From a virus, in IMG/VR virus record IMGVR_UViG_3300025853_000182, positions 1-44,103 of that record: a DNA stretch of 44,103 bases; one strand, written 5' to 3'. Within the stretch, counting starts at the first letter, position 1. The number at the start of each line of letters is the position of its first letter. A model generated the notes under the pieces. The model ran no database searches. It was not told the origin of the DNA and saw only the letters and a list, made by a program, of their open reading frames with translations. The position numbers and the translations under genes are program-made. Positions 1,218-42,566 of this stretch are shown here, piece after piece.

Positions 1218-4200
1218 GTGACGATTCCGAATCCCAGTGGTGGAGAGGAACAAGAAGGGGCTGACCCATCGTTTCAGTCTCCCTTTCCATTAGCGCAACA
1301 GCCTGACCCTACTTTTGAAGACGTTGCATCTCTCGGTGTTCTTGACCCGTCAACAGATATGCGGGTATCGGAGGGTATGGATAGAGCACCCAAAACGATG
1401 CCTGAATCGTTTGAAGGCGGTGCTCCCTTTGCTGAGCGCATTAAGTCACACGACAGTATCGTGCACATGGGTTCGCAGTGGCTTCATCAACAGATACGAC
1501 CACCAAGCCGAGAACATCAGGGTACAGAAACCGAGCACTTTTTTGAAGACCATTATCACAGTCCTGATTTCAATCCCCTTTGGGGTAACCATGACGAATA
1601 CGACGACGAATCGCATCCTGAGTTCAGCAACGTCTTGGAGCGTTATTTTCTTGATAATGTTCTTGACCCTAAGGTCGAAAGTGTAGCACAAGAGCATGAC
1701 AGAAAAGAGGAGGCTCACTATCGACATCACGGAGATACTGCACTGTACTCACCTGCCATGTACGGTAAGGAACGGGTGTCTAATCATACAATATACGAAA
1801 TGAACTTTGAAAATTGGCAAGCAAGCCCTGCGGGTTTGAAAGCATTTCAAGAAGAACTGTTACTTGGTCGTGAAGGTGCTGATTTTGACGAAGCCATGCG
1901 AAGACGGCACATGTCGGATGCTAAAGATACATGGAAAGATTTTGACACAAAGGGCGAAGGAACGGACCGCACTGTCGGGCTTGGTGAACTGGATTACTAC
2001 TTTGGATTAGAATGGCTCAGTCCCAAAGACAAGATTGCATTCTATGAACATATGATGGAACACGGTTCGATGAACAAGGACAACGCATCTGTTTTCTTAC
2101 CTGACTTGGGTATGGAAGTACCCATGGGTCGTTTCGTAGCAAACTTTCATCAGCGCTATGCTCCAGTTCACGCACACCACACACGTGACGTGGATGCCAC
2201 AGGCGAACCCGGACTTGGTCGTCTTTACACTCCTCCACAGGACGACATCAATCCCGCTGAGATGTACAAAGACCTTGAGGGTACAGAACTATTTCAGCGA
2301 CTGAAAGACTTTTACCAAGGGATTACTGGCGAGAAGTTGAAGTATTTGGCGAAGGTCGAGAAAGGTCGTCTCGTACCAAGCGATGCAAAAACAATCACCC
2401 CCAACGATTTGTTTGCTATGGCGAACATGGGTCGTGCAGGTCAGAAACTTATGCGGTACGATGACCCATACTATTCACTCAACCGAGGTGACCCTCGTAC
2501 GATTGCCTTGCTTGATTCGTTGGAGGGCATCGACGAACTTGTCAAAGACTTCGTAGGTTTTCACAGGGATGCTACAAAAATGAAAGGTAATGGTCGTCGA
2601 TTGCGAAACGCTATTCAGTTTTTCACACAGCCGTTTCTTGCTACCGAAGGTGAGAACGCACATCCTGAGTCGTACATAGGCGGTAAGCAAGAATCGCTCA
2701 GCCATCACTTCTCCACACCGTTCTTGGGAAGAGGCGGACTTGGTAAGACGCACGCAACTCGTCTAAACACCATGCATGCAGCGCATCGCTTTTCGCCCGA
2801 AGAGGGAGACGCTATGTCGTTTTTGACGACTGGTGAGCGTTCACGTGTGGGCGGTGACATAGTTGGAGTAGGTGACGCAGGCGCGTTTCGCCCCGAACTG
2901 ATTGGCCTTGCCGATGCTGTTGAAAACGTGATGGCACCGTTCGGTCCGCCTGAATCGGAACTGGAAGCGGTCAAGCGTTATCGTAAAACCGAGAAGGGGC
3001 TGTATGAAGCCAAGCAGGTTGCTGAAATCAGCCCCAGCACGGGTCTGACTGCTCAGTTGAATCCGCATAACATTCAGCGCACTGGCGTCAGTTTACTGTC
3101 GGGTGCCAAGGTCAACAGTACACGACACGACACGACGACCTCTCCAAAGTATTACAATCAACTGATGGAATCCAAGCACGGTGCTACGGAACAAGGCATG
3201 CGTGGCGCTATGCGTAATGCTGTTGCTGATGGGTATGGGTACGAAAACACCATAGGTTCACGCAACGCATTCGGACCGAAGTCGACTGAAACAGGAGTGA
3301 TGCGCCGTGACCAAGACTCCGCTATGCATCACCATCAGTTGTCCGGAATGATTGGTGCAATACACCCACCTGCCAACCCTTCGTTCCAAGAGGATGTTCA
3401 TCATCCTCACAGCATACACCCTGATACAGAGATGGCTGCGGACCGTGACGAACTCGGAATGTTGCAGGGAATTACGCAAGACAATTATGATAACGATTTG
3501 AAACAACTTCAATCGCTGCGCGAGAACGCACACGAGAAGCGCATGCTTCTTGGCAATCTGAAAAACAACCCACCAAAACCACCCGCTGTTCTTGGTATGA
3601 ATGACGAATCGATGGCGTGGTTTTTAGCCTCGCAAGAGCATGAAAACAAAATTAAGGACGCTGAACGAGATGCAATGTTGGCTGAGGGTAAGGTCAATGC
3701 ACACGTAAATACGTTTAGACCAAGAATGTTGGAATACAGCCAAGCCGAGGACGAACTCAACACACTCATTGAACAGCAAGCGCGTGGTATGCCTGTATCA
3801 GAAGACGAAATCGACGAAGCGCACGAGCGCTTGGAGGCCATTGAACGAGAACATTATTCTTCCGTCAAGGGAAGACATCAGAAATACTTGAGTGATAAGG
3901 GAAGGACACTACAAGGCAAAGTACGAAGTCACATCAATGCAATCGAGAACGTAGCCAAACAAGTGCTTGCTGAGGCTGAGCAACAGGGTTTTGATTTGTT
4001 TTCTATGGCACCGCCTGACACCGTCATGGCGTGGGCCATGAAGACAGCAAACGACATTCTTGCTACTCAAGACCAAGATTTTCACGGACAAGAAGCATTG
4101 TCAGCGGGAACGATTCGTGAAAAAACGCATGTAAGGCATGACGCTGTACAAGACCAAGTCAAAGCCTTCATGGACACAGATGATGCTCACGAAATCGGAC

Positions 4201-6620
4201 CAAACGAAAACGTGGACAAAGCCACAGCCCGTGTGTTTGGCGAAGAAGCATCACCCTATCAGCGAAGGATGATTCAACAAATCGTAACTCAGGCCAGTAA
4301 GCAAGGTACGCCTGTACGAATTGCTACGGTGCAAGACCTCATAGCAAGTTTACCCATGGGAGTTTCAGATACATTAGTTGATGACTTTCACGGACTTCTT
4401 GACTATCCTCACGACAGGGAAGGTAACTTTGAGTTGGGAACTGTCCGAGCACATCCTGATAGAAAGAGGAGAGGGGCTAACAGCCTAAAGACCAACCCCA
4501 CAATGGTCGCAGCATCGGCAGTATCACGGATGCTTGAAACGTTGTCGGACCGAGGTTTGGAAATTCAAATACCGAACCAAAAGGATAAACGTCAATTAGA
4601 TGCACACTATACTGGCAAAAATGTTAGTCATAGATTAACAGGCAAACCACTCATAGACGAAAAGAAAATGCACAAATTAACCAACTTACTTCATGGAATT
4701 GTGGTTGATGACGGCTCAGTTGAGTACGACCCAACGCACGAAGCCTCCAAAGAAAGGCTTGCACTCACGTCAAAGCCGATTGGTCGTGCCTCACATCCTG
4801 ACACAGAAACATCCATCATGTCCATTTACAACTCAGACGGACTGCGTTCTCACAAAGGGCACATGCACGAAGTTCCATTCCGCATGGATATAAGAGACGG
4901 TCGTATGCAGTTTCGACCACAGACGCCAAAGAAAATGCGATTGGCTACGCCTATGGGAGGTTCAGTGAGAAGAGTCTTGCCTCAACAACATCTTGGTCAC
5001 TTTGGTGCACACAACGATGACCGTTCAGTTGAGCGACAACCAAACGCTACGCGTTCAAACCAAGCCCAAACGACTTTGAGTGATAACCTGCTGGACATAT
5101 CGACGAAGATGGACGGACCTGCATTGCTGGCTTCGCTGACCAACCCTGATTATATCCGCAAGGATATGCCTGAGGGCTTGCCGTCACTGCAACCGATGCA
5201 CCGTATCTTTGATGTCGACGACCTTGAACACCTGCGTGGGTTCACAGGCGACTGGGTTGTCAGCGATTATCCTGAGGGCGAGCGAATGTTCGTTACAAAA
5301 AAGGATGACGACGTCGAAAGTAAGGGTTCACTTACAGATGAAGAGAAGAAAGCGTTCAAGCAGGTATCTGACAAGGATTTTTTGGTTGACGTTATACGAC
5401 GTGAGAGTGGATTGTACATCTTTGAGGTCATTGAGTTTGATGGCAAGGAGGTTCATGATATGCCGATTCAAGACCGCATCAAGTTGTTGCGTGGTGCGTT
5501 GCAAAGCGTTGAGGGTGTCGAAGCCCCAAGTGCATCCGATACCAAGTTGACCGACGATGTCGGACTGGCTGACGCCATCAAGAACATCGAGAGCGACCGT
5601 ATCTTGTTGCGTGATGCAAAGTCCACGTACATGAAAGGCGAAGCACGTCATCCCAAGTGGGTCATGTATCAGAAAGGCAACGATGTTACACTCATGGTGC
5701 TTGAGCGAAGAGGCGAATCGCCGTACACGTATCGACTTGGTACAGGTCCAATCATTCATGGAGAGGACTTGGGTGACCGTGCAGTCAAGATTGAGGATGA
5801 CATTTACATGGACATTGGTGCATCGTTCAATGCTCCTGAAAAGTATGAGGTCGGTGACTTCGTCAAGGTCAATGTCACGAGCGTAACAGAAGGTGAAGCA
5901 TCTGAGAATCAAAAGGTGTACACTGTTCACGCACCACGCATCGAAGGTGAGGCTGAGGGCGAACCATTGGTCAGTACAGAAAGCCTTGCTATGTTAGCAA
6001 AAGCCGACATGACTCAAAGTCCACTCAACATCTATAGAAGTGACCGTCACATTCGTGTATCGTTTGAAGCAGGTGATGTTCTGTACAAGGCGACCACACG
6101 TGGTCAGTATTGGACTGTACACACACCCGTAGCCGACAATGACTATCTGATTCGTTTGTCTGAAAGCCAACGACCGTTTTGGTCACCCGTTGCTGGCGTC
6201 ATGCTCAAGGGTGACTTTTCTATAGAAGAACGAGAGGACAAGGCTGAGGTTCACGAAAGTAAGGGTGACGCTAAGCCTCTCATCCCACCTAAGAAAATTC
6301 ATGGCACTGGGACGTGGGACAAAGAGAAGAACAAGGTTATGAAGAAGGGTGTCGAACTTCTTGAGCGACTGTTGGCGAAAAGCGGTGTAGGTCAAGTGGG
6401 TACGAGTATGTCAGGACCCAAAGGACTCGGTATAGACTACGGCACGCCCATACAATCACCAACAGGTCCGACCAACCCCGACGATGCGAAAACCATGCCT
6501 GACTACGATGTGCGTGATATTGAACGTGACAGGAAAGATAAAGAGGAAGAATCGAAAGACGTCGAGGAAGTTGATAGTAAGTTAGAACTTACAGAAGATA
6601 AGGCTGTTTACCATATCTGA
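1218..6620 (+). CDS. Large head-region protein with degenerate ATP-dependent DNA ligase-like domain (1800 aa)
   Basis: The start is GTG at 1218 behind GGCGGTGAT. Residues 1 to about 1290 are unrecognised, rich in His, Glu and Asp, with helical or coiled stretches near 755-900. Residues about 1325-1590 follow the ATP-dependent DNA ligase fold: a region like motif I at 1346-1358 (WVVSDYPEGERMF, where K-x-D-G-x-R is expected), a motif-IIIa-like FEVIEFDGKEV from 1402, a motif IV/V-like stretch from 1462 (ILLRDAKSTY, then KWVMYQKG), and an OB-fold-like YEVGDFVKVNV near 1545. The nucleophilic lysine of motif I and the Glu-Gly-x-x-x-Lys of motif IV are missing, so catalysis is doubtful. The C-terminus is highly acidic. 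It lies between the small head genes and the protease. Family usual ligase length is 300-600 residues, so this is a fusion. It could be a virion-internal or packaging-related DNA-binding protein. Confidence 0.7.
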   Translation: MTIPNPSGGEEQEGADPSFQSPFPLAQQPDPTFEDVASLGVLDPSTDMRVSEGMDRAPKTMPESFEGGAPFAERIKSHDSIVHMGSQWLHQQIRPPSREHQGTETEHFFEDHYHSPDFNPLWGNHDEYDDESHPEFSNVLERYFLDNVLDPKVESVAQEHDRKEEAHYRHHGDTALYSPAMYGKERVSNHTIYEMNFENWQASPAGLKAFQEELLLGREGADFDEAMRRRHMSDAKDTWKDFDTKGEGTDRTVGLGELDYYFGLEWLSPKDKIAFYEHMMEHGSMNKDNASVFLPDLGMEVPMGRFVANFHQRYAPVHAHHTRDVDATGEPGLGRLYTPPQDDINPAEMYKDLEGTELFQRLKDFYQGITGEKLKYLAKVEKGRLVPSDAKTITPNDLFAMANMGRAGQKLMRYDDPYYSLNRGDPRTIALLDSLEGIDELVKDFVGFHRDATKMKGNGRRLRNAIQFFTQPFLATEGENAHPESYIGGKQESLSHHFSTPFLGRGGLGKTHATRLNTMHAAHRFSPEEGDAMSFLTTGERSRVGGDIVGVGDAGAFRPELIGLADAVENVMAPFGPPESELEAVKRYRKTEKGLYEAKQVAEISPSTGLTAQLNPHNIQRTGVSLLSGAKVNSTRHDTTTSPKYYNQLMESKHGATEQGMRGAMRNAVADGYGYENTIGSRNAFGPKSTETGVMRRDQDSAMHHHQLSGMIGAIHPPANPSFQEDVHHPHSIHPDTEMAADRDELGMLQGITQDNYDNDLKQLQSLRENAHEKRMLLGNLKNNPPKPPAVLGMNDESMAWFLASQEHENKIKDAERDAMLAEGKVNAHVNTFRPRMLEYSQAEDELNTLIEQQARGMPVSEDEIDEAHERLEAIEREHYSSVKGRHQKYLSDKGRTLQGKVRSHINAIENVAKQVLAEAEQQGFDLFSMAPPDTVMAWAMKTANDILATQDQDFHGQEALSAGTIREKTHVRHDAVQDQVKAFMDTDDAHEIGPNENVDKATARVFGEEASPYQRRMIQQIVTQASKQGTPVRIATVQDLIASLPMGVSDTLVDDFHGLLDYPHDREGNFELGTVRAHPDRKRRGANSLKTNPTMVAASAVSRMLETLSDRGLEIQIPNQKDKRQLDAHYTGKNVSHRLTGKPLIDEKKMHKLTNLLHGIVVDDGSVEYDPTHEASKERLALTSKPIGRASHPDTETSIMSIYNSDGLRSHKGHMHEVPFRMDIRDGRMQFRPQTPKKMRLATPMGGSVRRVLPQQHLGHFGAHNDDRSVERQPNATRSNQAQTTLSDNLLDISTKMDGPALLASLTNPDYIRKDMPEGLPSLQPMHRIFDVDDLEHLRGFTGDWVVSDYPEGERMFVTKKDDDVESKGSLTDEEKKAFKQVSDKDFLVDVIRRESGLYIFEVIEFDGKEVHDMPIQDRIKLLRGALQSVEGVEAPSASDTKLTDDVGLADAIKNIESDRILLRDAKSTYMKGEARHPKWVMYQKGNDVTLMVLERRGESPYTYRLGTGPIIHGEDLGDRAVKIEDDIYMDIGASFNAPEKYEVGDFVKVNVTSVTEGEASENQKVYTVHAPRIEGEAEGEPLVSTESLAMLAKADMTQSPLNIYRSDRHIRVSFEAGDVLYKATTRGQYWTVHTPVADNDYLIRLSESQRPFWSPVAGVMLKGDFSIEEREDKAEVHESKGDAKPLIPPKKIHGTGTWDKEKNKVMKKGVELLERLLAKSGVGQVGTSMSGPKGLGIDYGTPIQSPTGPTNPDDAKTMPDYDVRDIERDRKDKEEESKDVEEVDSKLELTEDKAVYHI
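6218..6227. repeat. Palindrome TTCTATAGAA, copy 1
   Basis: A perfect 10-base palindrome inside the 1800-residue gene. Three more full copies occur at 29159-29168, 29461-29470 and 37991-38000, all within genes. Partial copies with the 8-base core TCTATAGA lie at 6031, 17330 and 32013. Confidence 0.7.
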
Positions 6621-6629: not shown

Positions 6630-8054
6630 ATGACGGATGTAACAACTACAATGGTCATGGTATCGCCACTACAATCCGCCCGGTTTGAAGGCGGTGGCAC
6701 CATATCGCTCCTCAAGAGCGACAATGGCCTTGTTATTGCAGGTTATGCAAGCGTCGAAATGGTCGACAAGCAAGGTGACCTCATCACTACAGGTGCACTC
6801 AAGGGTGCATTTGACAACTTCATGAAAGCGGACGGATTCCGCAACGTACAACTCGCACACTCCAACATCCAAGTTGGAAGTGTTATACCACAATACACCG
6901 ACAGTAGCGGTCGATTGTGGAAGTCCGGTGTCGATGACGCTGGACTCTTCGTTGTCATCGAAGTACGCGATGACATCGAAAAGGCTCGTGAAGTAGCCAA
7001 TGAGATTCGCAAAGGCGCCCTTAGGGGTTTCAGTATCGGTGGACAAGCATTCAAGCGAATGCGAAAAGCCGATTCGGAACACGGTGATTACACCGAGATT
7101 TCCAAACTGGAACTTCACGAGGTAACGATTTGTGAAAAAGGTATAAACCCGGAGGCGACATTCCGTATATTGAAGGAGGACACAACAATGACTGAAAGTA
7201 CAGACATGAACACAATGAGCGAACTGTCGTCCGTCTTGGACCGCATCAACACCCGCCTCGACGTAATGGAGAAAGGTGAAATGCCCGAAGGCTTGAAAGA
7301 GCACATGAAGGGTAAGGACAAGGACGACAAGGATGAAGACAAAGGCAAAGAAATGGCTGATGAAGACAAAGACGAAAAGATGTACGGCGCCGAACACAAA
7401 GGCGAGATGGAGAAATCCGAGTACTCTGACGTTATCACCCAAGACTACCTACACTGGATGGAAAACACCCTAAAGTCGGGTGGCGTCGATATTAACGGCG
7501 CTCGTGCACACTTTGATGCACTTGAGAAGGCACAACTTGGTGGCTTCGACAACCCATCTTCTGTTGACGGTGCTGACTACTTTGCAGGCCAAGTTAAAGG
7601 CCGAGCACAAGAAGGTGGCAACCCATCCACTGGCGCAATTGGCAAACTCAACAGCGGCTCTAAGGCTGATGTTGCAAAGGGCTACTTGTCTCCTGAGGAC
7701 CTCTCCCCTGCTGACCTTGAGCAAGCATACGCTGCTTACAAGGCTGCTTCCATTGAGAAGCAACTCAAGGGAACTCTCAGCGATGTATTCGCCGACCGAC
7801 TCGCCAAGGAACAGCGCAGTGAGGCTGAAAGCCGACAAGCACAAGCATTCGACGCTCGTGCTCCACTCGCATCAATCGAAAAAGCAGTTGCTGCTCTAAG
7901 CGACCGAATCGATAACCTTGCATCAGGTGCAACTGGAACAACCATCCAAAAGTCCGCACCTGTTTCTAACGTTGAAATTCCATCCACTATGGATATGGCT
8001 AACATGTCTTGGGATGACGTACACCGCCTCGCAGGAAGTGTATTCCACAACTAA
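6630..8054 (+). CDS. Prohead protease fused to scaffold protein (474 aa)
   Basis: Residues about 20-185 match the HK97-type prohead protease (peptidase family S78/U35): the VIAGYASVEMVDKQGDLI opening, a candidate catalytic His77 in QLAHS, Ser135 in RGFSIGG, and an acidic LELHEVTI segment (160-167) that closes the triad. From 187 on, the protein is scaffold-like: a Lys/Asp/Glu-rich stretch (about 215-255), then helical, Ala-rich sequence to the end. The protein ends with MSWDDVHRLA (459-468), a motif shared with the 126-residue protein at 438-818. The known role is cleavage of scaffold and capsid N-termini during head maturation. The start at 6630 has no evident Shine-Dalgarno site; TTATATAG precedes it. 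The major capsid gene follows 15 bases downstream. Confidence 0.92.
   Translation: MTDVTTTMVMVSPLQSARFEGGGTISLLKSDNGLVIAGYASVEMVDKQGDLITTGALKGAFDNFMKADGFRNVQLAHSNIQVGSVIPQYTDSSGRLWKSGVDDAGLFVVIEVRDDIEKAREVANEIRKGALRGFSIGGQAFKRMRKADSEHGDYTEISKLELHEVTICEKGINPEATFRILKEDTTMTESTDMNTMSELSSVLDRINTRLDVMEKGEMPEGLKEHMKGKDKDDKDEDKGKEMADEDKDEKMYGAEHKGEMEKSEYSDVITQDYLHWMENTLKSGGVDINGARAHFDALEKAQLGGFDNPSSVDGADYFAGQVKGRAQEGGNPSTGAIGKLNSGSKADVAKGYLSPEDLSPADLEQAYAAYKAASIEKQLKGTLSDVFADRLAKEQRSEAESRQAQAFDARAPLASIEKAVAALSDRIDNLASGATGTTIQKSAPVSNVEIPSTMDMANMSWDDVHRLAGSVFHN
7175..7180 (+). promoter_or_regulatory. Internal Shine-Dalgarno site for nested scaffold
   Basis: GGAGGA, within AAGGAGGA, lies 7 bases before an in-frame ATG at 7188 inside the protease/scaffold gene. 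It is among the best ribosome sites in the window, whereas the parent gene's own start has none. This supports independent, higher-level production of the scaffold segment. Confidence 0.75.
7188..8054 (+). CDS. Nested scaffold protein, in-frame with protease (288 aa)
   Basis: Internal initiation at Met187 of the protease gene would yield the scaffold segment alone (MTESTDMNTMSELSS onwards). The site has a strong Shine-Dalgarno sequence at proper spacing, and the start falls exactly at the boundary between the protease fold and the charged linker. The arrangement parallels lambda C/Nu3, where the scaffold is translated from inside the protease gene; that parallel is established knowledge, its use here is inference. 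The product is acidic and helical with a C-terminal Trp/His/Arg motif (MSWDDVHRLA) that could bind the capsid protein. The scaffold is needed in many more copies than the protease, which fits the unequal ribosome sites. Confidence 0.7.
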   Translation: MTESTDMNTMSELSSVLDRINTRLDVMEKGEMPEGLKEHMKGKDKDDKDEDKGKEMADEDKDEKMYGAEHKGEMEKSEYSDVITQDYLHWMENTLKSGGVDINGARAHFDALEKAQLGGFDNPSSVDGADYFAGQVKGRAQEGGNPSTGAIGKLNSGSKADVAKGYLSPEDLSPADLEQAYAAYKAASIEKQLKGTLSDVFADRLAKEQRSEAESRQAQAFDARAPLASIEKAVAALSDRIDNLASGATGTTIQKSAPVSNVEIPSTMDMANMSWDDVHRLAGSVFHN

Positions 8055-8069
8055 ATGGAGTGATTAAGA

Positions 8070-9245
8070 ATGGCAAGAAACTATCTAAGAACAGTAACCG
8101 ACATGGAACGCTACTACTATGGTGCAGGCTCAAACATGGGCTTCCACTATTCAGGCAGTGAACTTTTGAAAGCAGACGCACCACTATTGTCCACAACTGC
8201 TGGTACATACCAAGCAATTTACGGACGAAAGGTTTGGAGCCAGTTGAACCAAGAATTCAACGCATTCTCCATCCTTCCTAAGAAGCCTTGGGACCGAAGT
8301 GGATGGCGTGTCGTAACCGCACGACCTGATTCCGCTAAGGGCGGAGGTATTGCGGAGAACGGTACACTACCGGAAACCACCAAACCTGTCTTCCAGCACA
8401 TCGCTGCAAAGCCTAAGACCATTGCACACACCTTCGACATGAGCGAAGTTGCAATCTTCCTTAACGACAAGGACGACGGTCTTGGTGACATTCGCAGTGT
8501 TCTCAAGGAAGAAATGGGTAAGCACCACGCTGAGGAAATCAACAAGATGCTCCTCCAAGACGTCGACACACCTGCTGGCAACGACTACGAGTCCCTCGAC
8601 CGTGTCACCGCTTCAAGCACAATGGACAGTACTGGTACTGGTCCAGTCGCAGCAGGCTCTCAGACTACAAACACCGCACACGTTAGCGCTGCTTCTGACC
8701 TCGACATTTACAGCATTGACCGAGATGCAAACACTTGGTCCAACGCTGAGGTCAACGTCGCAACCGATGCAGGCTTGACTGAGCGTGTACTCAGCCTTGA
8801 CCACCTCGACGACATCTTCCAAAAGATTTGGGTACGTGGTGGAAATCCAAAGGTCATCCTCACTGGATATGACACTTTGATGCGAATCCAACAACTCCTC
8901 CAAGCGCAACAGCGATTCATGGAAGAGAAGCGTGTCACCCCTACCTTCAACGGTGTCAAGGGTGTACCCGGTGTTGAAGCAGGTTTCATCGTCGCTACAT
9001 ACAACGGTGTCCCAATCATTCCATCCAAGGACGTTACAAAGGACGGCATCAGCCGTATGTACTTCTTGGACACTGACTACCTACACTTTAGTGTCGCAAA
9101 ACCAACTCAATACTTTGAGTCAGGTATCGAAACTGGAGACCCATTCGCCATCAACCGCCTCGGTCAAGAAGGACTTTACCGAACCATGGGTGAAATTTGG
9201 ACAACTTTCTTTGGAGGCCACGGTTCAATCCGAGACTTGTCTTGA
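8070..9245 (+). CDS. Major capsid protein, HK97 fold (391 aa)
   Basis: Length and position directly after the protease/scaffold fit an HK97-fold capsid protein. The sequence shows the expected pattern: a helical N-arm (to about 50), a segment like the E-loop around WRVVTARPDSAKGGGIAENG (89-108), a long spine helix (GDIRSVLKEEMGKHHAEEINKMLL, about 138-161), and a P-domain with VILTGYDTLMRIQQLLQAQQ. Near the C-terminus DTDYLHFSVAKPTQYFESG resembles the A-domain end of archaeal and bacterial capsid proteins. A Gly/Ser/Thr-rich insertion lies at about 175-215. The ribosome site GGAGTGAT precedes the ATG. No Cys is seen, and no cross-linking residues can be assigned from sequence alone. Confidence 0.88.
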   Translation: MARNYLRTVTDMERYYYGAGSNMGFHYSGSELLKADAPLLSTTAGTYQAIYGRKVWSQLNQEFNAFSILPKKPWDRSGWRVVTARPDSAKGGGIAENGTLPETTKPVFQHIAAKPKTIAHTFDMSEVAIFLNDKDDGLGDIRSVLKEEMGKHHAEEINKMLLQDVDTPAGNDYESLDRVTASSTMDSTGTGPVAAGSQTTNTAHVSAASDLDIYSIDRDANTWSNAEVNVATDAGLTERVLSLDHLDDIFQKIWVRGGNPKVILTGYDTLMRIQQLLQAQQRFMEEKRVTPTFNGVKGVPGVEAGFIVATYNGVPIIPSKDVTKDGISRMYFLDTDYLHFSVAKPTQYFESGIETGDPFAINRLGQEGLYRTMGEIWTTFFGGHGSIRDLS

Positions 9246-9282
9246 GGTTTGATGGAGATAACACACACAGGAGATGAAAAAT

Positions 9283-9732
9283 ATGACAGCAACAACAGGA
9301 ACAAGCGGAATAGTTTACACATCGAGTTCAAGTGCAGTTTACACAGAAGACTTTGCACTCGACTTGTATGCAGGTTCACCTACGGGCGATACTGAATGGT
9401 TGAAAGGTTTCGGAGGTACATACCCCGGCTCTTTGACTGGATTTCAAGCAAGCAACAGTGATGGAAACGCAACAGCAGGCATCAAGTTAGTTTGTGGACG
9501 ATTTACCACAGCACTAGCCAACGATGAAAAATTGGTCGTTGGCGGCAATGCGTCGAAAATTTTGGCAGTAATCGTTGGAGACAACGTTACAGAAAGTGCC
9601 GCAGTTAGTATGAAGAATGCAATCGGTACAACAACTGCAACAAACTCAGACGGCAACACCGTGAACGCAGCACAGTTTACCGTGACTGGAACAAGTCACA
9701 CCACAGTAACTTGCTGGATGATTGTGGCTTGA
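9283..9732 (+). CDS. Candidate capsid decoration protein (149 aa)
   Basis: Not recognised by family. It is Thr/Ser/Gly/Ala-rich and predicted beta, with almost no Lys or Arg, and follows the capsid gene directly, a usual place for a decoration (cement) protein. The ATG at 9283 is preferred over the one at 9274 because GGAGATG (9270-9276) needs room before the start; the earlier ATG overlaps that site. The TGA stop runs into GAGGTG, the ribosome site of the next gene. The decoration role is inference from position and composition. Confidence 0.75.
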   Translation: MTATTGTSGIVYTSSSSAVYTEDFALDLYAGSPTGDTEWLKGFGGTYPGSLTGFQASNSDGNATAGIKLVCGRFTTALANDEKLVVGGNASKILAVIVGDNVTESAAVSMKNAIGTTTATNSDGNTVNAAQFTVTGTSHTTVTCWMIVA

Positions 9733-9743
9733 GGTGTTTCTTC

Positions 9744-10142
9744 TTGCCTACAATAACTTCACTGGGACCGTACCATACACGTACAGTTCCCGGTATGCGC
9801 CGAACCTACGCTGAGCGAAACGTCCCTATGGAAGTCTCGCAAGAGTGGCTCGATGCGTACCGCAATCGACTATCCCCTAAGTGGTGGAAGGTCGAAGGAG
9901 ATGCAGGTATCACAGTCGACGCAGGTGACGATGGAATTCCCGACTCAGGTTGGACTAAGAAGGACATCAGCGCATGGCTTGAGGAGCGTGGAGAAACAGT
10001 TGGTGGATATGCGACCAAGTCCAAACTACTGGGCATGGTTGACCTAATCCTCAACCCTCCAGCACCTGAGCCAGTCGTCGAAGAACCAGCGGTCGAAAAA
10101 CCAGTGGCAGAAGAAACAGAAACAACAGGAGATGAACAATAA
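9744..10142 (+). CDS. HeH/LEM-like domain head protein (132 aa)
   Basis: The start is taken as TTG at 9744, seven bases after GAGGTG; the frame is open further upstream but without a ribosome site. Residues 70-103 (WTKKDISAWLEERGE, then TKSKLLGMVDLIL) match the helix-extended-helix pattern of HeH/LEM/SAP-like domains, which occur in phage head-completion and packaging proteins and often bind DNA. The N-terminal 50 residues are basic and Trp/Tyr-rich (PKWWKVEG). The C-terminal 30 residues are a Pro/Glu/Val low-complexity tail (PVVEEPAVEKPVAEE). The TAA stop overlaps the next ATG by one base. Likely a head protein near the portal vertex. Confidence 0.75.
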   Translation: MPTITSLGPYHTRTVPGMRRTYAERNVPMEVSQEWLDAYRNRLSPKWWKVEGDAGITVDAGDDGIPDSGWTKKDISAWLEERGETVGGYATKSKLLGMVDLILNPPAPEPVVEEPAVEKPVAEETETTGDEQ

Positions 10143-10465
10143 TGACAGTAACAATTGACCCACGACCAACATACTTTGGAGACCGAATGGTAGTAACAGG
10201 CACATACACAGGTGGAGCCGCAACCGAGACTATAGACTTAACAAGTTTTTTCTCAAGAATCGACGCATTTGTGGTTAACCCTAATGCATCAGTAATACAA
10301 GAAGTGGACTCAGCCGATGCCACCGACGGTGCTGCTGAACACATCACCAATTTGCTCGATGTAGGCTCTTTGGACACAGCAAGGACTACAATAACAGTTA
10401 GGCAAGCGTCTGACCAAGACAACGTGCAACCGGGAAGTTTCCTCGCAATTGGTCGTCGCTCTTGA
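10142..10465 (+). CDS. Hypothetical small beta-rich head protein (107 aa)
   Basis: Not recognised. It reads as one compact beta domain, MTVTIDPRPTYFGDRMVVTGTYTGG to the end at PGSFLAIGRRS, with no Cys and no signal sequence. GGAGATG lies nine bases before the ATG, and the start overlaps the previous TAA by one base, so translation is coupled. Its composition and location within the head-protein run suggest a second decoration or head-vertex component. That is inference from context only. Confidence 0.75.
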   Translation: MTVTIDPRPTYFGDRMVVTGTYTGGAATETIDLTSFFSRIDAFVVNPNASVIQEVDSADATDGAAEHITNLLDVGSLDTARTTITVRQASDQDNVQPGSFLAIGRRS

Positions 10466-10663: not shown

Positions 10664-10945
10664 ATGGATGCAGCAACACTCGGACTCGACGAAATCGAGC
10701 GACTTGAGAAGCGTGGCGTACGACTGGCCGAGTCCTACGGGGCAGGTAGCGTCTTCAATCAAGAGAAACCTCTTGAGGGCGTAGTCAGTAAACAACGCAT
10801 ACGCAACCGAAAGACAGGCGACGTTCTGAACATCGGCTCAGGCACACGGTGCAAATCGTGTGGTATGCTTTACTTCTGTTGGGTTGACAACTGTCGAACG
10901 TGCGGAACAAAGATGGACTTCAATTTGGGAACAAAGGAGGAATGA
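10664..10945 (+). CDS. Zinc-ribbon protein (93 aa)
   Basis: ATG at 10664 is chosen because GAGGGTGAT ends three bases upstream; the frame extends a little further up without a ribosome site. Residues 63-80 hold Cys63, Cys66, Cys72, Cys77 and Cys80 (CKSC then CRTC), a zinc-ribbon or knuckle of the rubredoxin type. The first 50 residues are helical and charged. A zinc ribbon amid head genes could serve assembly or DNA contact at the vertex, or be a small regulator; I cannot tell which. The last bases overlap the region where the next gene's GGAGG ribosome site lies. Confidence 0.75.
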   Translation: MDAATLGLDEIERLEKRGVRLAESYGAGSVFNQEKPLEGVVSKQRIRNRKTGDVLNIGSGTRCKSCGMLYFCWVDNCRTCGTKMDFNLGTKEE

Positions 10946-10947
10946 AC

Positions 10948-12765
10948 ATGCGAATAGCAGTACGAAAAGCGCCCGGTGATGACGATTCACGTAAAAACCT
11001 CATGGACAAACTGGACGCTGCACTAAGCGGCGGAAAGGGCGGCGAAATCAAAGACGCAGTCAAGCGTCGTACTGAGAAGCCCGAAGGCGAAAAGCGAACT
11101 GCTGAGGAACTCCGTGACGTTCCCGTCGAAGCACCGACAACTGGCAGAACAGGTGCCAAGTTAAGGGGAGTCAAAGAGGAAGACCTTGCTGGTAAGACAG
11201 TAGTAGGCTCAGAAGAATCTGAGGCGATGAAACAAAAGCGCCAAGAGATTTACGACCGAGCCATCGCACAGGGTAACACCCCTGCACGTGCACAGGCTCT
11301 TGCTGAGGCTTACCAACTGACTGACACATCAGAAGGCAAAGCCCCTCCGCCTTCACGTGAAGGTAAGCGTGTGAGCGATGACAAAGACCGTGGTGCTTCA
11401 CTCGGACGGGGTATTGGTGCTAAGCGTGCTACCTTTGACATCGAAGATACACGTGGTAAGAAATTCCGTAGTCGAACAGGCCGTCGTGAGAAAGACATAG
11501 CGACCGAAGCAGGCGAAGGAGGCATCGTCGGATTCGGTGGTGAGACGAGAGTCGTTGACGATACTGGTCAAAACCCATACATGGGTAGTAAAAGGAAAGG
11601 ACCGAAAGAAGCAAAGACGCTTGAGTCGTATCTGAACTCAATGATGTCAAAGGACCCTAATGCATTTCAAACACAAATTTTGGGTCAAGATTACGGTAAC
11701 GTACAACCGAATCGTCAAGGAGACGACCCACAAGGAGTTCGTAATGAATTAATTCGTCGGTTTGGCGAATTGCATGCAAACGACAAGCAACAACTGGGTC
11801 GTAACATCATGAACCACATGAATCGTATGGGGCTTCAACTTGGTGGAGCAGGCTATGAAACATCCCAAGGCAAGACAGGTGGCAGTGCCAGTATGACTGG
11901 CATAGAAGGCGACACTGTAAGCGAAGAAGAATTTATTCGACGTATTCTCGGCGAAGGTCGAGACGTTACGCAAGACCCCGGTTTCAAGCAACGAGTTGAC
12001 CCTTCGGACACGGAAGTCACGGGTATCTCAGACGAAGAAAAATTGTCGAACTTGATTGACATGACTGCACAGCGTCAGGGTATGAGTCCTGATGACGAGC
12101 AGCGACTACGCAACGCTGTCGAGCAGTTGCAACAGCAACAGGGCACTGCTGCGTTTCAAATGAGTCCATCTGAACTTGTTGAGCGAGCAGCGATGAACGT
12201 GACGTCAGGTACAGACGAAGCACTACAGCAGCGCAACATGGCTAACCTGCGAGCACAGTTTACCAAACTCATCGCTCAAGAAAACGCATTAGCAGACATG
12301 GCTGAAACCAACCCTTCACTACGACGAAGACTCTCAGAAATTCGTGACCAACGACGTATGGTTGAATCCCAAATCAAGGGAGGCGCACCGCCTGAACGTG
12401 CACCACGAGCCTCAGATAGAGGGCTTGGTCGTAAGCAAGGAGATTACGTGCAAATCGAAACGCTCGATGGTCCACGTATGGACTTTGTCGAATCTGAGAA
12501 ACCAATCGACCCTACCGGGCAGACACCTGACCTTGGGATGGACCCAAGTGCTGTAGGTCGTTCACGGCCCACAGCGGAAGAAAAAGCAAACATGGCAATG
12601 GGTGGTATGGGTATGACTGAGGAACAGAAGGCACAGATGCTCGCTGACTTTGAAGCAGCAATGGCTGCACGAGATGATGATGATGTTCAAACAGGATTCC
12701 CGATGTACATTGGAGACGTGCTCATGAAGTCGGTTCAAAACCGTCTTTGGTGGCAAGGTCTATGA
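10948..12765 (+). CDS. Large, mostly disordered structural protein (605 aa)
   Basis: The start is taken as ATG 10948, seven bases after GGAGG (10936-10940); ATG 10942 is too close to it. The protein is highly charged with few hydrophobic clusters: Arg/Lys/Glu/Gly-rich in the first 230 residues, Gln-rich with helices from about 250 to 500, then an acidic, Met/Gly-rich end closing with a hydrophobic, Trp-containing segment (MKSVQNRLWWQGL). No known domain is seen. Between the capsid group and the head-tail adaptor, it may be an internal, portal-associated or ejected protein. The terminal aromatic segment could be a docking peptide. Confidence 0.7.
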   Translation: MRIAVRKAPGDDDSRKNLMDKLDAALSGGKGGEIKDAVKRRTEKPEGEKRTAEELRDVPVEAPTTGRTGAKLRGVKEEDLAGKTVVGSEESEAMKQKRQEIYDRAIAQGNTPARAQALAEAYQLTDTSEGKAPPPSREGKRVSDDKDRGASLGRGIGAKRATFDIEDTRGKKFRSRTGRREKDIATEAGEGGIVGFGGETRVVDDTGQNPYMGSKRKGPKEAKTLESYLNSMMSKDPNAFQTQILGQDYGNVQPNRQGDDPQGVRNELIRRFGELHANDKQQLGRNIMNHMNRMGLQLGGAGYETSQGKTGGSASMTGIEGDTVSEEEFIRRILGEGRDVTQDPGFKQRVDPSDTEVTGISDEEKLSNLIDMTAQRQGMSPDDEQRLRNAVEQLQQQQGTAAFQMSPSELVERAAMNVTSGTDEALQQRNMANLRAQFTKLIAQENALADMAETNPSLRRRLSEIRDQRRMVESQIKGGAPPERAPRASDRGLGRKQGDYVQIETLDGPRMDFVESEKPIDPTGQTPDLGMDPSAVGRSRPTAEEKANMAMGGMGMTEEQKAQMLADFEAAMAARDDDDVQTGFPMYIGDVLMKSVQNRLWWQGL

Positions 12766-19902: not shown

Positions 19903-21333
19903 ATGTCATTACCAGTTCGTTTGATGTTTGGCGACAATCGCTTCACCATACCCGTTCAGGCTGAGGAGATTACTATGGCAGTGCATCGTAAGTTGCACAC
20001 TTTTCCAATACCGTTTGATGGCTCGCAGCGAATTGGTATCGATACAAACATGGCTGCTATGCAAATGAACTTGTCACTGATTCTTCAAGACGATACGGGA
20101 GTGTTGCCAAACGACGAAGGACAACCTCTTGTGAATGTCTTGAATTTTGCAAAGTACAAGACAGGTGTCAACTCGCTTTCGTTTGCAAACAAGTTGTTGT
20201 TCTTACCAGTGACATTGTTTGGAGAAAACGTCGTTTACACAAGTTCTTCGGATTTTACACAGTCGCAAATCAAACTTGTTATGGACGGCTCAACGACGTC
20301 AAGTTTAGCGGGTGGTTCAGGTACACCCAGTGTACGTAGCGGACACACACTCCTTGAGAACGGCCAAGTCATCATCGACGTACCTGTAGGTGCCATCGAC
20401 TCAGCACCTGATAACGGAGATTCAGCCGCTACTATTGCTCTTGCTGTAAAGGCAGCCTTGGAACTGACAACTCAAATCACGAACTTGAGCACTGGTGTTG
20501 ACAACGTAGGAGGCAAGCGCGTTACCGATGCGTTTACTGTTACTGTATCAGGGCAAAATTCAGCGGTTCTTTTGATAGAACAAAAGTATGTCGACCCTAC
20601 ACGGGAATTTTCGTATACTCTTGACAAAGCACCCGACAAAATAACAGAAATAACAGTGAGCCTTGGTCCGGGTCAGGGGACTGTAACGTTTCCACAAGTT
20701 ACGCTTGGAGGTACACTACTTACTCAAACAGCCTGCTTACAACCCAACTTGCCTTTGCTGGGTGTTTCAGGCAGAACAATGAGCGCAGGTGATAAGGCAC
20801 AGACGCTGATGGGACTGCTTGCTAACGCCAAAAACTCACAGGATTTGCTGAGAGGTATTCAAATTCCATATGACTCGTTAATTCAATCGGATGCAGTCAC
20901 ACCCGAAGTTCGTAACTTTTTTACAACGTACGGTCGGAATACATCTCCATTACTCAAGTCATCTGAGGCAAACACCTCACCCGCATCAAAATCTATGATT
21001 TCACCGTCGACCTCGTCTAAAAATGGACAAAGTGTTTTGGACGAAGCGAGCGAAGCCGAAGGAACGAATTTCATTGATTTGTTGATTCGTTCAGGTGACG
21101 CAGTGTTGGACTTTGCGTTTGACGATGTTCTCAACTTGGGTTCATTGTATGACGGTCTCAAAGACATTGCTACGGGCGTAGGTGATGCGCTTAGAGGAGA
21201 AGCATCTTCGCAATCGAAGGCTAATGGCATTTACGTTTTACCTGAAAAGTTTCATTTACGCAAGGAGGCTGGGAAGAACTACTACGTGGCCGACCTCGAT
21301 TTGATTATGGTTCACAAAGTGGCAGGTGTTTGA
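19903..21333 (+). CDS. Distal tail protein paralog 2 (476 aa)
   Basis: This is a diverged tandem copy of the preceding gene: the first 50 residues, the GIQIPYDS segment (about residue 320) and RNFFTTYG are shared. It differs in a Ser-rich segment (about 345-375) and a helical insertion around 385-440 (GTNFIDLLIRSGDAVLDFAFDDVL). The C-terminal strand (YYVADLDLIMVHKVAGV) parallels YNFSMKLIAVDSLL in paralog 1. The ATG follows GAGGTGAAAAG. Two related ring proteins in tandem suggest a hetero-ring or stacked rings at the tail tip. The stop overlaps the ribosome site of the giant gene. Confidence 0.7.
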   Translation: MSLPVRLMFGDNRFTIPVQAEEITMAVHRKLHTFPIPFDGSQRIGIDTNMAAMQMNLSLILQDDTGVLPNDEGQPLVNVLNFAKYKTGVNSLSFANKLLFLPVTLFGENVVYTSSSDFTQSQIKLVMDGSTTSSLAGGSGTPSVRSGHTLLENGQVIIDVPVGAIDSAPDNGDSAATIALAVKAALELTTQITNLSTGVDNVGGKRVTDAFTVTVSGQNSAVLLIEQKYVDPTREFSYTLDKAPDKITEITVSLGPGQGTVTFPQVTLGGTLLTQTACLQPNLPLLGVSGRTMSAGDKAQTLMGLLANAKNSQDLLRGIQIPYDSLIQSDAVTPEVRNFFTTYGRNTSPLLKSSEANTSPASKSMISPSTSSKNGQSVLDEASEAEGTNFIDLLIRSGDAVLDFAFDDVLNLGSLYDGLKDIATGVGDALRGEASSQSKANGIYVLPEKFHLRKEAGKNYYVADLDLIMVHKVAGV

Positions 21334-21338
21334 TTTGG
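21324..21338 (+). repeat. 15-base repeat at a TTG gene start, copy 2
   Basis: Identical AGGTGTTTGATTTGG to 18143-18157. It spans the end of the distal-tail paralog 2 gene and the TTG start of the giant gene. Confidence 0.7.
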
Positions 21339-24300
21339 CTGTATCGGCGGACTCCACATATGCCATGCGATTCAACGGTATCTCGGATGCTGTCATCATC
21401 CCAATGCAAAACTTTGCACAAGCGTCAGGTAACTTTCAATCAGGTGCACCAGTCACTGATATGCTCATACCAACCGCACTTGACTCATTTACGTTTGAGT
21501 CTTGGGTTATTCCTGATTCGGGAGGTATTGTATGGGAATACGAACATGTCATGCGACTTGCTGTCGGCGCTCCGTCAAGCAGTGCACCTGCAAGTTTCCA
21601 AGTAAAGTTACGAAGCAAAGACACAGGGAACGAAAACACGTTCACACTCAGCAGCGCAACCGCCATAACCAAGCCTGACGGGACGGTATCGCACTACGAT
21701 GGTGTCACCTACCCACGAACTGCTTTAGTAGTACACGACGCTTATGACGCACTCGACGGACTCAAACCTCACAACGCTGCTGTACATGATGGACATCGAG
21801 AGTTGCTACAGGTGTCGGTTATGTTCAACAAACGTCACCTGTCTTTGCGAATCAACGGCGACATTGTTGCTGCGAAAACACTGACATCTGACCATGAACT
21901 GGTCATGTACCCAACACAGGTGTTTGTTGGTGGACAGGGCGGTGAATTCCGTGGGACGATAGAAGCCATACATTGGGCACGGGGTGCTCATGACAGTAGC
22001 GTTGATTCGTATGCTCCAGTATTAACCGATTCGACTCTTGGCCTTTGGCGATTTGAAGAACCTATTGAGCCAATATCGACTATTCTCGCACTCCCTTCAC
22101 TTTCAGCATCAACGTCAGCCAACTCGACCATTACAATTGGAGCAACGGAAGCCCAGTCACTCATTGATGTACTAACAGGTAAAAGTGGCATCACATCAAT
22201 TGACTTGACTTCCGCTACTTATTCCGCAGGCAATTACACCGTGACAAAGAACGCAGCCAACTCAGAAAGCACAATTACAATTCCCCAAGTATCTTTTAAC
22301 TTACTCATTAACCCTCTCGGCTATAATCGGACAACTGGTGTACCCAACCGTGAGGCACCTGAACGTGTACGTCTGACGAATGTTGACGCAAGTGCTGGTA
22401 CGATAACAGTCGAAAGCATACACCTCGACTTTGTCTCAAACACAACAAACGGACGACGTGGTTTACTCATGGCGCACAGTGCAAGCGATGCAGTCATTGT
22501 CATAGGTGATTGTCTTGTTGACAGCGGCACTGCAAACCAAGGCGTAGGTACAGGTACACAATTTTCAAACAGGCAAGGACAAGTCGCCGTTGACGAAAGT
22601 GACTTTGAAAACCATGGTATCGTATTTTCAACACGAATGGCAATCGCCGATGACCCGTACATGAAATATTCAGCGACTACGAACATGGGTGCTGCATTCA
22701 CGGCAGGTCACACGGGTCGACACATACTCAATCATGTCAAGAGCCATCCTTACATTGGTATGCTACCGCGCCCGATTGATTCAGAAGTCGAGCAAAACAT
22801 CGACGGCTCAGCATCAGTTATGACTGCCACCTTTGCTCCACAGTATGCAAACGTACGTGATGCAGCGCCTGCGAACTCAATCGTCTCGTTCTATGATGTT
22901 TCAGGACCGTTTACAGTCGCATCAACATCATTTACAACGGAAGTCAAGCAAGTTGTCGAAAACGGCATGGCAGGTATTACAGACAGCAATCGTGACCTTT
23001 TAGCGTTAGGTGTCGAAGATGTAAGAAACTTCTTACTTCGTTCAGCCACATCGACTTCTCTTACCTCGCTCACTACAGATAGCGACGAGCACATCCGTCA
23101 CATGACACCATCTTCTGAAAGCCGAACTGCCATGTTGGAAATACCTTCTTTGTTGCAGTATGGTCGCCCAGCGCTTGTTCAGGTCAAATACAACGCTGTC
23201 GACATTACCGGTCGTGGTATCAAACATGCTGCTACTGCACGACTGACCGCAGGTATCAGCGGTGGTGGCACTGTACTCACGTTTGCTTCTGTCAAACAGT
23301 TTGGTGCTAATACTGATACAATCACTGCTGACCTCATTAGTATAGGAGGAGAAGTAGCGGGTGCAAGTTCAATCACTGCAACAATCAGTCACTCGGCAAA
23401 CACACTCACGTTTTCGTCAGCCACGACAGGTGCATTCCAGTCAGCGGCTACTACAAACGCAATCGTCAATTCGTATCTCAGTCACGGGGCACTTCTTGTG
23501 GAGAGTACTTATCCTGATGTTGGAGAGGAAGTTACTTCGGGAACACGTATCATCGATTTGATTCACACGGACATCAAAGCAGGTAACGCTGTTGTGCATG
23601 CAGCAGGTGGTGTGCTTCGCTGTGTTACTACGAGTCAGATGCTTTACAAAGAAGGAGAATTGAACGGTGATGATGAAGAGGGTCACCAAACAGAACGTGT
23701 TCTCGACTTTACAATGTGCCCTGAAAATTATCTTCCAGTCCACACTTCCGATTCGCCCCAACTTAATCCACGTCGCATACTTTCTCCTCGTGCAAGCAAC
23801 AGCGCCCGTGATTCGGTGTTCAACCGAATCGTGATTATACCCTCAAGCAATGGCAACGACAAGTTCGATGTCGACTTAGACGGCCATCTTGTACAAGGTA
23901 AGCAAGGTACTGTTCGTAAAAGCACAGGCGTTTTCGTCAATAACAACGGTGGTCACGCAGCAGGGACGACGACAATCACTGTCGATGGTGCCAACGCTAC
24001 CAATTTCTTCGGCGCAGGGACACGTCTTTTCAGCCTTGATGGTGTTCAACTTGGTACAGTAGGTAGTTCAACTAGTACCTCAATTACATTAGCATCAGGT
24101 AGCACACAAGCAGTCGTTGACAACGAAGAATTGTTTTACCAACCGATGGGTAAAGCAGTCGGGACAACTGCTCAAAGCAGTGGTGTGCACGAAGTATTTG
24201 ACATCGTTTCGCACACTACAGACGGTATATACACCGAATTCGTTGTACAGCCGTCTGACCGCAATCGATTTACACAATTGTCAAAATTGTTTACAAACGA

Positions 24301-27300
24301 ACAAGGCACAAACGTACGAGCCAACCAGTTTGAAATCCATTATCTCATGGGACGTGGTCGTGCGCTTACAATGTCCGACGGTGACGCAGGTACCTCAGTC
24401 CTCCGAGCACACGGACTTGGGGCTGACTTGGCTGCTAATTCAATCAGTGTCAAGGGTGACGGAGCACCTGATTCATTCATCGTCAAGGAGACGATGCCCG
24501 GTTCGCCAGTCGTCACAGTAACGCTTGGGGGCGCAGGGCAGGGTGCTATCAACACGAAGCCAACCTACAACCCTTCGCCAACGGCTCGACTTGGTTGGTC
24601 GACACGCAGGGATTGTTCAGTCAGGGTGTCGGCAACTACCAGCACGAAGGTTACGGTTGTGCCCCTCAACAACAAATCGGCAGCGCTTGCTTCATGGGGT
24701 ACTTACTGTTTCCCAAAAGTTGGTCGAATATATTTTGGAGTGCCTGTGGAGTCAGGTGATAGTGCGACGAAGTATGCCTCAGCCGAATACACCAGTAAAG
24801 ACGGAACGCAGTTCACGTTCTCTTCGGGAACGGGTCATACTGGTAGTGGTAAGTTTTTACTTACTGATGGGTCTGAAAGCGATTCTCTCAGTGCTTGGCT
24901 AACGGCGACTGGGATGAAAGCAGGCTCAGTCATCGTGGTCGACGACCAGTTTAACGAAGGCTCAATGTGCAACGACGGTACAACCATCAACGACCGATTG
25001 TTTCAAACGCTTGACACAGTACAGCACGACTATCAACTTGGCACGCAATACGCAAGCACGCGTGCAATGGTCGAGATACCTCTCTTCGATGACTTCTTCT
25101 TTGAAAACGAGGACGAGGGTATCTTCCCCGGACCTGACAACAGCATGAAGTTGCACCTTGACCCAACATATGCTGCACCGACATGGGCACCTAATCCTGT
25201 TGGACGACGCGCACCGTCTATTGCGCCCGAAGACCCAACGGTCAACAGTGCATTTTCAACATCAATCAAAGAAAACAAACACCGTCGAGGAACTGTTGTA
25301 AGTCAGCCATACGATTCAACCAACCGACGCATTTATGTTCAAGACTACAAGGTCTTCCCGATTGCTACGGCTGCACCTGTTACCGTTGCATCAATTGATG
25401 GTGCACTGCGCTATCGTCGTGCATTCTTGCCATCAGGTGAATGGGTATTATACGACACTCGCAACACAAGCGGCTACCTTGAAGTGGCAGGTAACGTATC
25501 ATCTGATGATAACTGGGCGTTCAGCAAGAACTTCTTGCAACAACTCTCAGTCGGTGTATCAATCATGCCTGCTTCGGGCTTCCAAGACATGAATTATCCG
25601 TCGATTGCTGATAACCCACTGGTTGACAGTGCAGGGTTTGAGGCTCGTCGACCTTACTACTATGACCGTGCAAACGTGATGACACAAGGAGGCAACGTGG
25701 ATTATGGTATGAAGCAATATGTCAGTGCCGTCGAGTTCCGTGCAGGTCCACGTGCAAATCCGCATCTCAAGCGCATCAAAAACAAGCGTGCTCGCTCAAC
25801 TAGCAATCAGGCTTACGTTCTCAGTACGTTGGTATTGGCTGACATAAGCGACTTTCCAAAGAGTAATGCCCACGCATCGAATTACAAATACCGAATTGCT
25901 TGGTGGAACGGAACAGTGTACAAATTTGCTCACTACGATACAATCAACACTACAACAGGTGCGATGGTACTCAACAACATCGATTCAGGATTCACTCCAC
26001 AGATTGGTGATGAAATCATCTTATGGGATATGCACGCACCTTCCGGTGTTTACCCTGAGGTCAAGGAAGACGCATTCCTCAATACCGCTTGGGCAAACCC
26101 ATATTGTAACGGCGGACTACGAGCAGGTGACACAGTTTGGATGAACATGCACTACACAAACCCTCACGCAATCGAAGGACTGTTCTGCAAGAGTCGGGGC
26201 ACACTCAATGAGGCTGAGGTATGGAGTGGATTCTTAGAAGGTGAAGGCGATTTCGCTACAACACCACGTGAAAGCATAGCAATGGAGAACTTCTTGATTG
26301 GCAATTCGTGTATTGAAACCGCACGTAACTTTGTTCAGCACGTCAACAAAACGATTGAATTGAACTATGAGGCGTTAGGGCTGGATGCGGCGAACGCACC
26401 TACTGTAGCATACATTGACCCCTACCAATCGACTGAGGAGCATGCTCGTGTATTGCTATACGATGTAGCACACGACCGTGAGTTCATTGCATTCCAAGAC
26501 CTGTGGATGCAAGTACAGTCAAGCCCACAGGCTGCAACGATAGGTGCTGAACCTCAGTCCACAGGTACAATCAACAACCAAACGACTGGAGCAGGTACAG
26601 GACTTGACGTTGCCAACGGCTTCCCCTCACAAAACAAATCACTTGCGTCAACCACTCAGTCTGAGTTTATGGAAGCAGCGATGGCACACAAGTCAACGTG
26701 GAACTTGAACGTGGACTTGAGTACGCACGCTACTGGTTACCACGGGCACACACCGAGTGACCCTGACCTCGTAGGAATACAAGTACGTACAAACCCTGCT
26801 GTATCGTCAACAAAGGATGACTTGGCTAACGATGAACATCAACAAATCAACGTATCGACCACTGAAAACTCGACGTTCTTTGACACACCTGATGGGACAC
26901 GATGCATTCCAGTATTCTTAGCACTCAAGGGTATTCGTACAACATCGCTTGATTTGTCAACGCATGAAGAATCTCGCTTACAGCATTTGCCTCACTGGTC
27001 TGATATGGACTTTGTTCGACGTCTTACCATTGATTTTGGTGAGATTGGAATGAAGGATGGTATTCGCAACATTGAGGCTGCTGCTCGTGAGATTGTTCGT
27101 CTGATAAATCAAGCAGGTGCACCAAACGGACGGACACATGCACGAAAGCCAGCCGACCAATACTTTGGCGAGAGCGAGCGATTCGGCCTGTCACGCGTAG
27201 CAAATCAGGCTGACGTGACAAACGGCATTACCGACCCCACTGCTGCCCATCTTAACGCAGGCTTTGCTGCTACCGGAAGCACGCATGACCCCTCTCCGTT

Positions 27301-42308: not shown

Positions 42309-42566
42309 ATGCAGACGTGTGAAGTCTGTAAGACGACGGCGTTACCCCTGTCTATATCAGGCAAATACACCACAGGTCCAGCCGTGGTATTGCACGAGTG
42401 TCCCAACTGTGGCTACATTCGCAAGCACGGTGGCTTGGGTCCGATAGCCGAGCGAGCATCGCTCAAGAGCATACGCAAACGACTGAAAAAGTCAGGGCAT
42501 GGGCAAATGTCATTGCTGCTACTACGCCATGCACAGGACACTATCATCAATCAGCGGACGCATTAG
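42309..42566 (+). CDS. Zinc-ribbon protein (85 aa)
   Basis: Cys4 and Cys7 (CEVC) and Cys31 and Cys34 (CPNC) form a zinc ribbon of the TFIIS/TFB type; the C-terminal 40 residues are basic (KSIRKRLKKSG). Possible roles are a transcription factor or a small DNA-binding protein. No good ribosome site precedes the ATG, unlike most genes here. Its TAG stop overlaps the TAA stop of the convergent chaperonin gene by four bases. The 45 bases before it hold no clear terminator or promoter. Confidence 0.65.
   Translation: MQTCEVCKTTALPLSISGKYTTGPAVVLHECPNCGYIRKHGGLGPIAERASLKSIRKRLKKSGHGQMSLLLLRHAQDTIINQRTH

Follow-up and report, generated by a model that had tools for sequence, protein, structure and literature searches.

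A DNA ligase fold without the catalytic lysine at the C-terminus of a giant, putative head-module protein of magroviruses

An open reading frame of 1800 codons beside a prohead protease gene ends in what resembles an ATP-dependent DNA ligase lacking its catalytic lysine. The locus raises the questions of whether the fold is real, whether it could still act as an enzyme, and what a virus would use it for next to its capsid genes. Magroviruses, which are abundant archaeal viruses of the sea, are described as carrying a nearly complete replisome that includes an ATP-dependent ligase.

The window, that is, the whole stretch of 44,103 nucleotides analysed here, belongs to a magrovirus; these are tailed viruses of the marine archaeal order Poseidoniales. 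The window contains the magrovirus hallmarks S78 protease, SU10/Druskaviridae-type major capsid protein (MCP) and chaperonin (Cpn60), and the closest host chaperonins to the latter are from Poseidoniaceae. PolB, a further magrovirus hallmark, was assessed in the relatives' records (54-109 kb) and was present in 15 of 16, among them G001, whose ligase-like domain is 98% identical to that of the window. The MCP and portal families are common to magroviruses and Druskaviridae. In two other records, G006 and G015 (those of L033 and L080), PolB is apparently split into two frames of 349 and 471 aa, comparable to the Aoguangviridae PolB, which is drawn as PolB-NTD/CTD. Positions 21326-37063 of the window form one ORF of 5245 aa, which presumably encodes a tail protein. 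The genes relevant here are:

1218..6620, plus strand: ORF of 1800 aa with a GTG start, the giant head-module protein (from the ORF list and gene order)
6630..8054, plus strand: prohead (S78) protease, the next gene (PF04586, E 3.1e-11; PHROG head maturation protease)
8070..9245, plus strand: major capsid protein (PF17236 SU10_MCP; phrog_24667, E 1.5e-56)
42563-44077: chaperonin (Cpn60)

In relatives whose sequences reach further upstream the order is portal, three small ORFs, giant gene, S78 protease and MCP, and the giant gene holds this fixed place beside the protease and MCP in two virus lineages. The giant protein is putatively assigned to the head by this gene order. An earlier note on this DNA had called it a head protein: the location in the head module, by the prohead protease, stands, while the label itself goes back to gene order only.

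The same note had proposed a ligase fold at residues about 1325-1590, and the profile search and structure prediction agree with it. The Pfam family PF01068 (DNA_ligase_A_M) matched a fragment of the window protein with an E-value of 1.9e-5 and 24.9 bits, slightly below the cut-off, which was reached in a six-frame search of the window. The family matched all 39 aligned relatives (best E 1.5e-7 against the whole Pfam library), and for the window protein and these relatives the dead ligase was the sole Pfam domain above chance. An AlphaFold2 (AF2) model of residues 1296-1800, with the 39 relatives as input, had a pLDDT of about 80-90 across residues about 1325-1585. The top PDB matches of this model in Foldseek were all ATP-dependent DNA ligases (E 2.5e-9), and VIA-align gave a Z of 13.7 and an rmsd of 3.0 over 159 residues against the nucleotidyltransferase (NTase) domain of human LIG3, with further rows covering the NTase and OB domains of DNA ligases. 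Chance similarity was ruled out by the PF01068 match in 39/39 members together with the structure match. The predicted structure thus confirms that residues about 1325-1590 are built like an ATP-dependent DNA ligase, with an NTase and an OB domain. The domain is not embedded in the protein, as had been described, and sits in its C-terminal part, preceded by a separate, exchangeable N-terminal part of ~1295 residues. The C-terminal part comprises:

5190..5687, plus strand: ligase-like NTase domain, residues ~1325-1490 (PF01068, AF2 model, Foldseek, VIA-align)
5688..5987, plus strand: OB-fold domain, residues ~1491-1590 (the model up to its residue 303 matches the ligase OB)
5988..6617, plus strand: conserved C-terminal tail (LSESQRPFWSPVAG; SPTGPTN), residues ~1591-1800 (low-confidence model)

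The catalytic motifs of this fold were located as follows:

5256..5291, plus strand: motif I segment VVSDYPEGERMF, with Tyr1351 (codon 5268-5270) at the nucleophile position, from profile alignments
5376..5399, plus strand: motif III region DFLVDVIR, with an invariant Asp1391 and without the metal-binding Glu (ligase counterpart IIDGES)
5418..5453, plus strand: motif IIIa IFEVIEFDGKEV, from the alignment of relatives
5595..5615, plus strand: motif IV DRILLRD (EGxxxK in ligases), in which the Lys is Arg
5658..5675, plus strand: motif V WVMYQK (WIKxK in ligases), in which the first Lys is Met or Leu and the second position is variable

At the nucleophile position, placed by sequence profiles plus fold-level matches and not on inspected model coordinates, the window protein has Tyr, and the 68 distinct magrovirus sequences have Met (53), Tyr (7), Phe (5), Leu, Trp or Ile (one each) and Lys in none, so that the loss of the K-x-D-G-x-R lysine noticed in the window is common to its relatives. 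The motif I columns of 80 relatives read GDW-I-V-S-x-[M/Y/F]-P-E-G-x-R-x-F-V; the motif I Arg is kept in all 68 magrovirus sequences, and Gly1354 is invariant in the 134 sequences of both lineages described below. Motif III reads D-V-[IVF] in the relatives, with loss of the ligase Glu. Motif IV, earlier read as RILLRD, was found as such (DRILLRD...PKWVMYQK), and its Glu position is mostly E or D across the relatives but also G, K or P, so the acidic residue is not invariant. No stand-in lysine was found near motif I in the magrovirus lineage. The residue before the nucleophile position is V, H, A, D, T or I in magroviruses, versus K in 59/66 sister sequences, and the lysines invariant in alignment A2 (residues 1315, 1480, 1595 and 1664) all lie outside motif I. 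These motifs indicate that the domain is very probably dead as a ligase.

Loss of catalytic residues could also mark a decaying, functionless remnant or an assembly artefact. The selection data largely refute this idea and leave it extremely improbable. The ligase-like domain is encoded on hundreds of independent contigs, and neither frameshifts nor relaxed selection were seen in relatives. The NTase had a dN/dS of 0.017-0.038 and the OB domain one of 0-0.055 (pairs with L006 and L008-L010), compared with 0.167 for the N-terminal part in its sole unsaturated pair; a pseudogene was ruled out by the values of about 0.02-0.04. Mean residue conservation was about 0.75 in the ligase-like part versus 0.35 in the N-terminal part, the domain being better conserved than the remainder of the protein. 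In many Poseidoniales viruses, purifying selection on the dead domain is strong. Searches for relatives gave no significant match in phage records and none in the genome contigs collection. Since a dead enzyme is strongly constrained, a non-catalytic function is indicated, and a binding role is likely.

A profile search of 292 Poseidoniales genomes gave a single match. It lies on a viral contig of 106 kb from one bin (genome G268, contig C2; L252 652-3480, L253 1-19001), and this contig represents a distinct virus lineage with a two-part head protein. The bin ties this sister lineage to the Poseidoniales host order, if the binning is right. Gene order and the two-part protein are the same as in magroviruses; the C-terminal profiles of the two lineages align with an E-value of 4.8e-40 and their N-terminal parts are distantly related (E 7.5e-8). 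The OB domain is absent from the sister lineage (L252-L281), where the NTase part leads directly into the WSPVAG tail common to both.

The sister lineage bears on the idea that the domain has remained a nucleotidyltransferase with another substrate or a different nucleophile, or is active only where K-P-x-G-x-R is kept. Its motif I reads W-V-V-Q-K-K-P-E-G-K-R, and hhalign places a Lys of this motif on the ligase nucleophile, weakly (E 0.018). This position is Lys in 42 of 66 distinct sister sequences, but Met (20), Val (2), Arg (1) or Gln (1) in the other 24, with 2-5 changes of the Lys needed on the tree. Both lineages lack the motif III Glu and the motif V Lys, and the magrovirus lineage has the nucleophile in 0/68 sequences. 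The sister Lys is therefore unprotected even where present, in a domain that has lost the remaining motifs. The earlier suggestion of another substrate appears very unlikely, there being no conserved lysine at motif I, although part of the sister lineage has one at the equivalent position.

These results also bear on the DNA ligase reported for magroviruses. Published descriptions credit these viruses with an ATP-dependent DNA ligase or a DNA ligase (PMC10160649, PMC12999244, PMC10768690). In the 16 magrovirus records examined (54-109 kb, not flagged complete), neither a second PF01068 match nor an NAD-dependent ligase was found, and no RNA ligase was found in 20 records tested. TIGR00574 matched the giant gene alone in the records searched, and no ligase gene besides the dead domain was found in the 15 magrovirus records with PolB; these too are not flagged complete, so that a ligase may have been missed. 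Xu et al. annotated with Pfam at E 1e-5, and the dead domain passes this value in at least some relatives (best 1.5e-7). Because no other ligase was found in the 15 PolB records, it is plausible that the reported magrovirus ligase may be the dead head-module domain. If so, no viral ligase is left in the sampled records, and these viruses would need the host to join DNA fragments; the ligase of the host order is NAD-dependent (29/30 Poseidoniales genomes).

The part of the giant protein upstream of the ligase-like domain showed a different history. Its features are:

1218..5102, plus strand: N-terminal ~1295 residues, exchangeable module (from DNA homology breaks and the identity of virus pairs)
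1485-3452: mostly helical globular body (predicted), residues 90-745 (AF2 pLDDT 75, pTM 0.78)

The DNA of the window and that of L008 are 88.7% similar as far as position 1239 and 90.3% similar downstream of 5106; between these points similarity is essentially absent save for one stretch of 67.8% at 4813-5004. The breakpoints lie at 1239 and 5103-5106, and the ligase-like part begins at 5106; the boundary at this start recurs against L010 and L012. In ten virus pairs from several clades the C-terminal part is at least 93% identical and the N-terminal part 25-56%. Along the gene block, C-terminal identity tracks that of the protease, while N-terminal identity falls to 25-34%. The ~1295 residues upstream of the ligase part are exchanged between close relatives. 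Other structural genes are also mosaic (9274-9732, 10142-10465 and 10900-12765), so exchange is not unique to the giant gene. The ORF at 10900-12765 drops to an identity of about 30% against viruses in which the adjacent genes reach about 90%. The model of residues 90-745 had no PDB or BFVD match at E<=0.001, which does not make its fold new.

The earlier note had proposed that the dead ligase binds DNA ends or nicks, or portal-proximal DNA, in genome packaging or anchoring. The NTase and OB fold, the motif I Arg retained in 68/68 magrovirus sequences and the position of the gene near the portal and protease would suit such a role. However, the mean net charge per residue is -0.081 for the NTase and -0.099 for the OB domain, strongly acidic against four real archaeal ligases (about -0.01 to -0.04 and -0.05 to +0.01, respectively), and the sister lineage keeps the NTase part and tail without the OB domain needed to wrap a nick. 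DNA-nick binding is disfavoured because both domains are acidic and the OB domain is dispensable; these features speak for protein rather than DNA binding. A local basic patch is compatible with the overall acidity, and DNA binding in packaging or anchoring is unlikely without being negligible.

In the explanation that we consider best, the ligase fold would have lost its chemistry and been reused as an unvarying dock for a conserved procapsid partner, such as the portal, capsid, scaffold or protease. Docking would carry the large, variable N-terminal part, probably packaged in the head as a cargo, into the particle, much like P1 DarA, the "polyvalent" proteins and other head proteins that are internal or ejected. 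We infer packaging and docking from evolution and from gene order, including the large multidomain protein that Druskaviridae have in the same slot. We give even chances to a pseudo-ligase that docks an exchangeable, probably head-packaged N-terminal cargo to the procapsid, and the balance is about the same for the narrower claim that the domain docks to some part of the head and not to DNA. Instead of an internal cargo, the exchanged N-terminal part could be one that is exposed on the surface and faces the host or its defences.

Alternatively, the emptied ATP pocket could bind a nucleotide or cap-like ligand without reacting with it, and serve as a sensor. The m3G-cap-binding domain of snurportin-1 has a capping-enzyme-like fold and binds the cap without catalysis. 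Weak Pfam matches were found to this domain (PF21974; best E 0.0015 in the sister lineage and 0.016 for the 39 aligned relatives) and to mRNA capping enzyme, but such matches are expected from the common fold, pocket motifs IV and V are eroded and no ligand is known, which makes a sensor quite unlikely.

The giant protein clearly illustrates how an old DNA-repair enzyme fold has become the unchanging part of a putative virus structural protein, next to a partner domain that is exchanged. It is possible, and we propose it tentatively, that an ancestral ligase core became the invariant part by which a delivery protein, with an exchanged N-terminal payload of ~1300 residues, docks to the capsid, that this is general in Poseidoniales ocean viruses, and that the replisome "ligase" is this dead domain. 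The domain offers a route to the head contents of uncultured Poseidoniales viruses.

Among known systems, the ATP-dependent DNA ligases (PF01068; archaeal Lig, LIG1/LIG3) share with the magrovirus domain the NTase plus OB fold, motif IIIa, the S-x-Y-x-x-G...W stretch and the motif I Gly and Arg. They differ in having the nucleophilic Lys, the motif III Glu, the motif V Lys and an intact motif IV, and are stand-alone enzymes, whereas the magrovirus domain is the C-terminal part of a giant head-module protein. Snurportin-1 likewise uses a covalent-nucleotidyltransferase-type fold without covalent chemistry, but it is a eukaryotic import adaptor with a known ligand, and the sequence match is too weak to establish kinship.

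The internal head proteins DarA and Hdf of P1 are also large head-module proteins tied to capsid assembly, and DarA is attached to the inside of the capsid and is a substrate of the prohead protease (PMC12810830). The passages on them do not mention a ligase; they serve as a working analogy for the putative docking and packaging of the magrovirus protein. Polyvalent proteins and MuF-fused effectors are described as large, encoded beside portal and packaging genes and thought to be injected (PMC5512222); the giant magrovirus gene also lies beside portal and packaging genes. Polyvalent proteins have several recognisable enzymatic domains, whereas the magrovirus protein has one recognised domain, a dead one, and its exchanged part is N-terminal, unlike in polyvalent proteins and MuF-fused effectors. 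The term "ligase" has three matches in that paper, those among them that were listed being on RNA ligases.

The positional counterparts in Druskaviridae are the genes between MuF and the protease, gp115 of HVTV-1 (L098 6539-10480) and gp109 of HCTV-1 (L099 3744-7376). No sequence similarity was found between the giant protein and these counterparts. They share with it the gene-order slot, the large size and the MCP and portal families, but differ in carrying a zeta-toxin kinase domain and, in HVTV-1, also a C-terminal ADP-ribosyltransferase, domains which suggest that gp115 and gp109 are packaged effectors.
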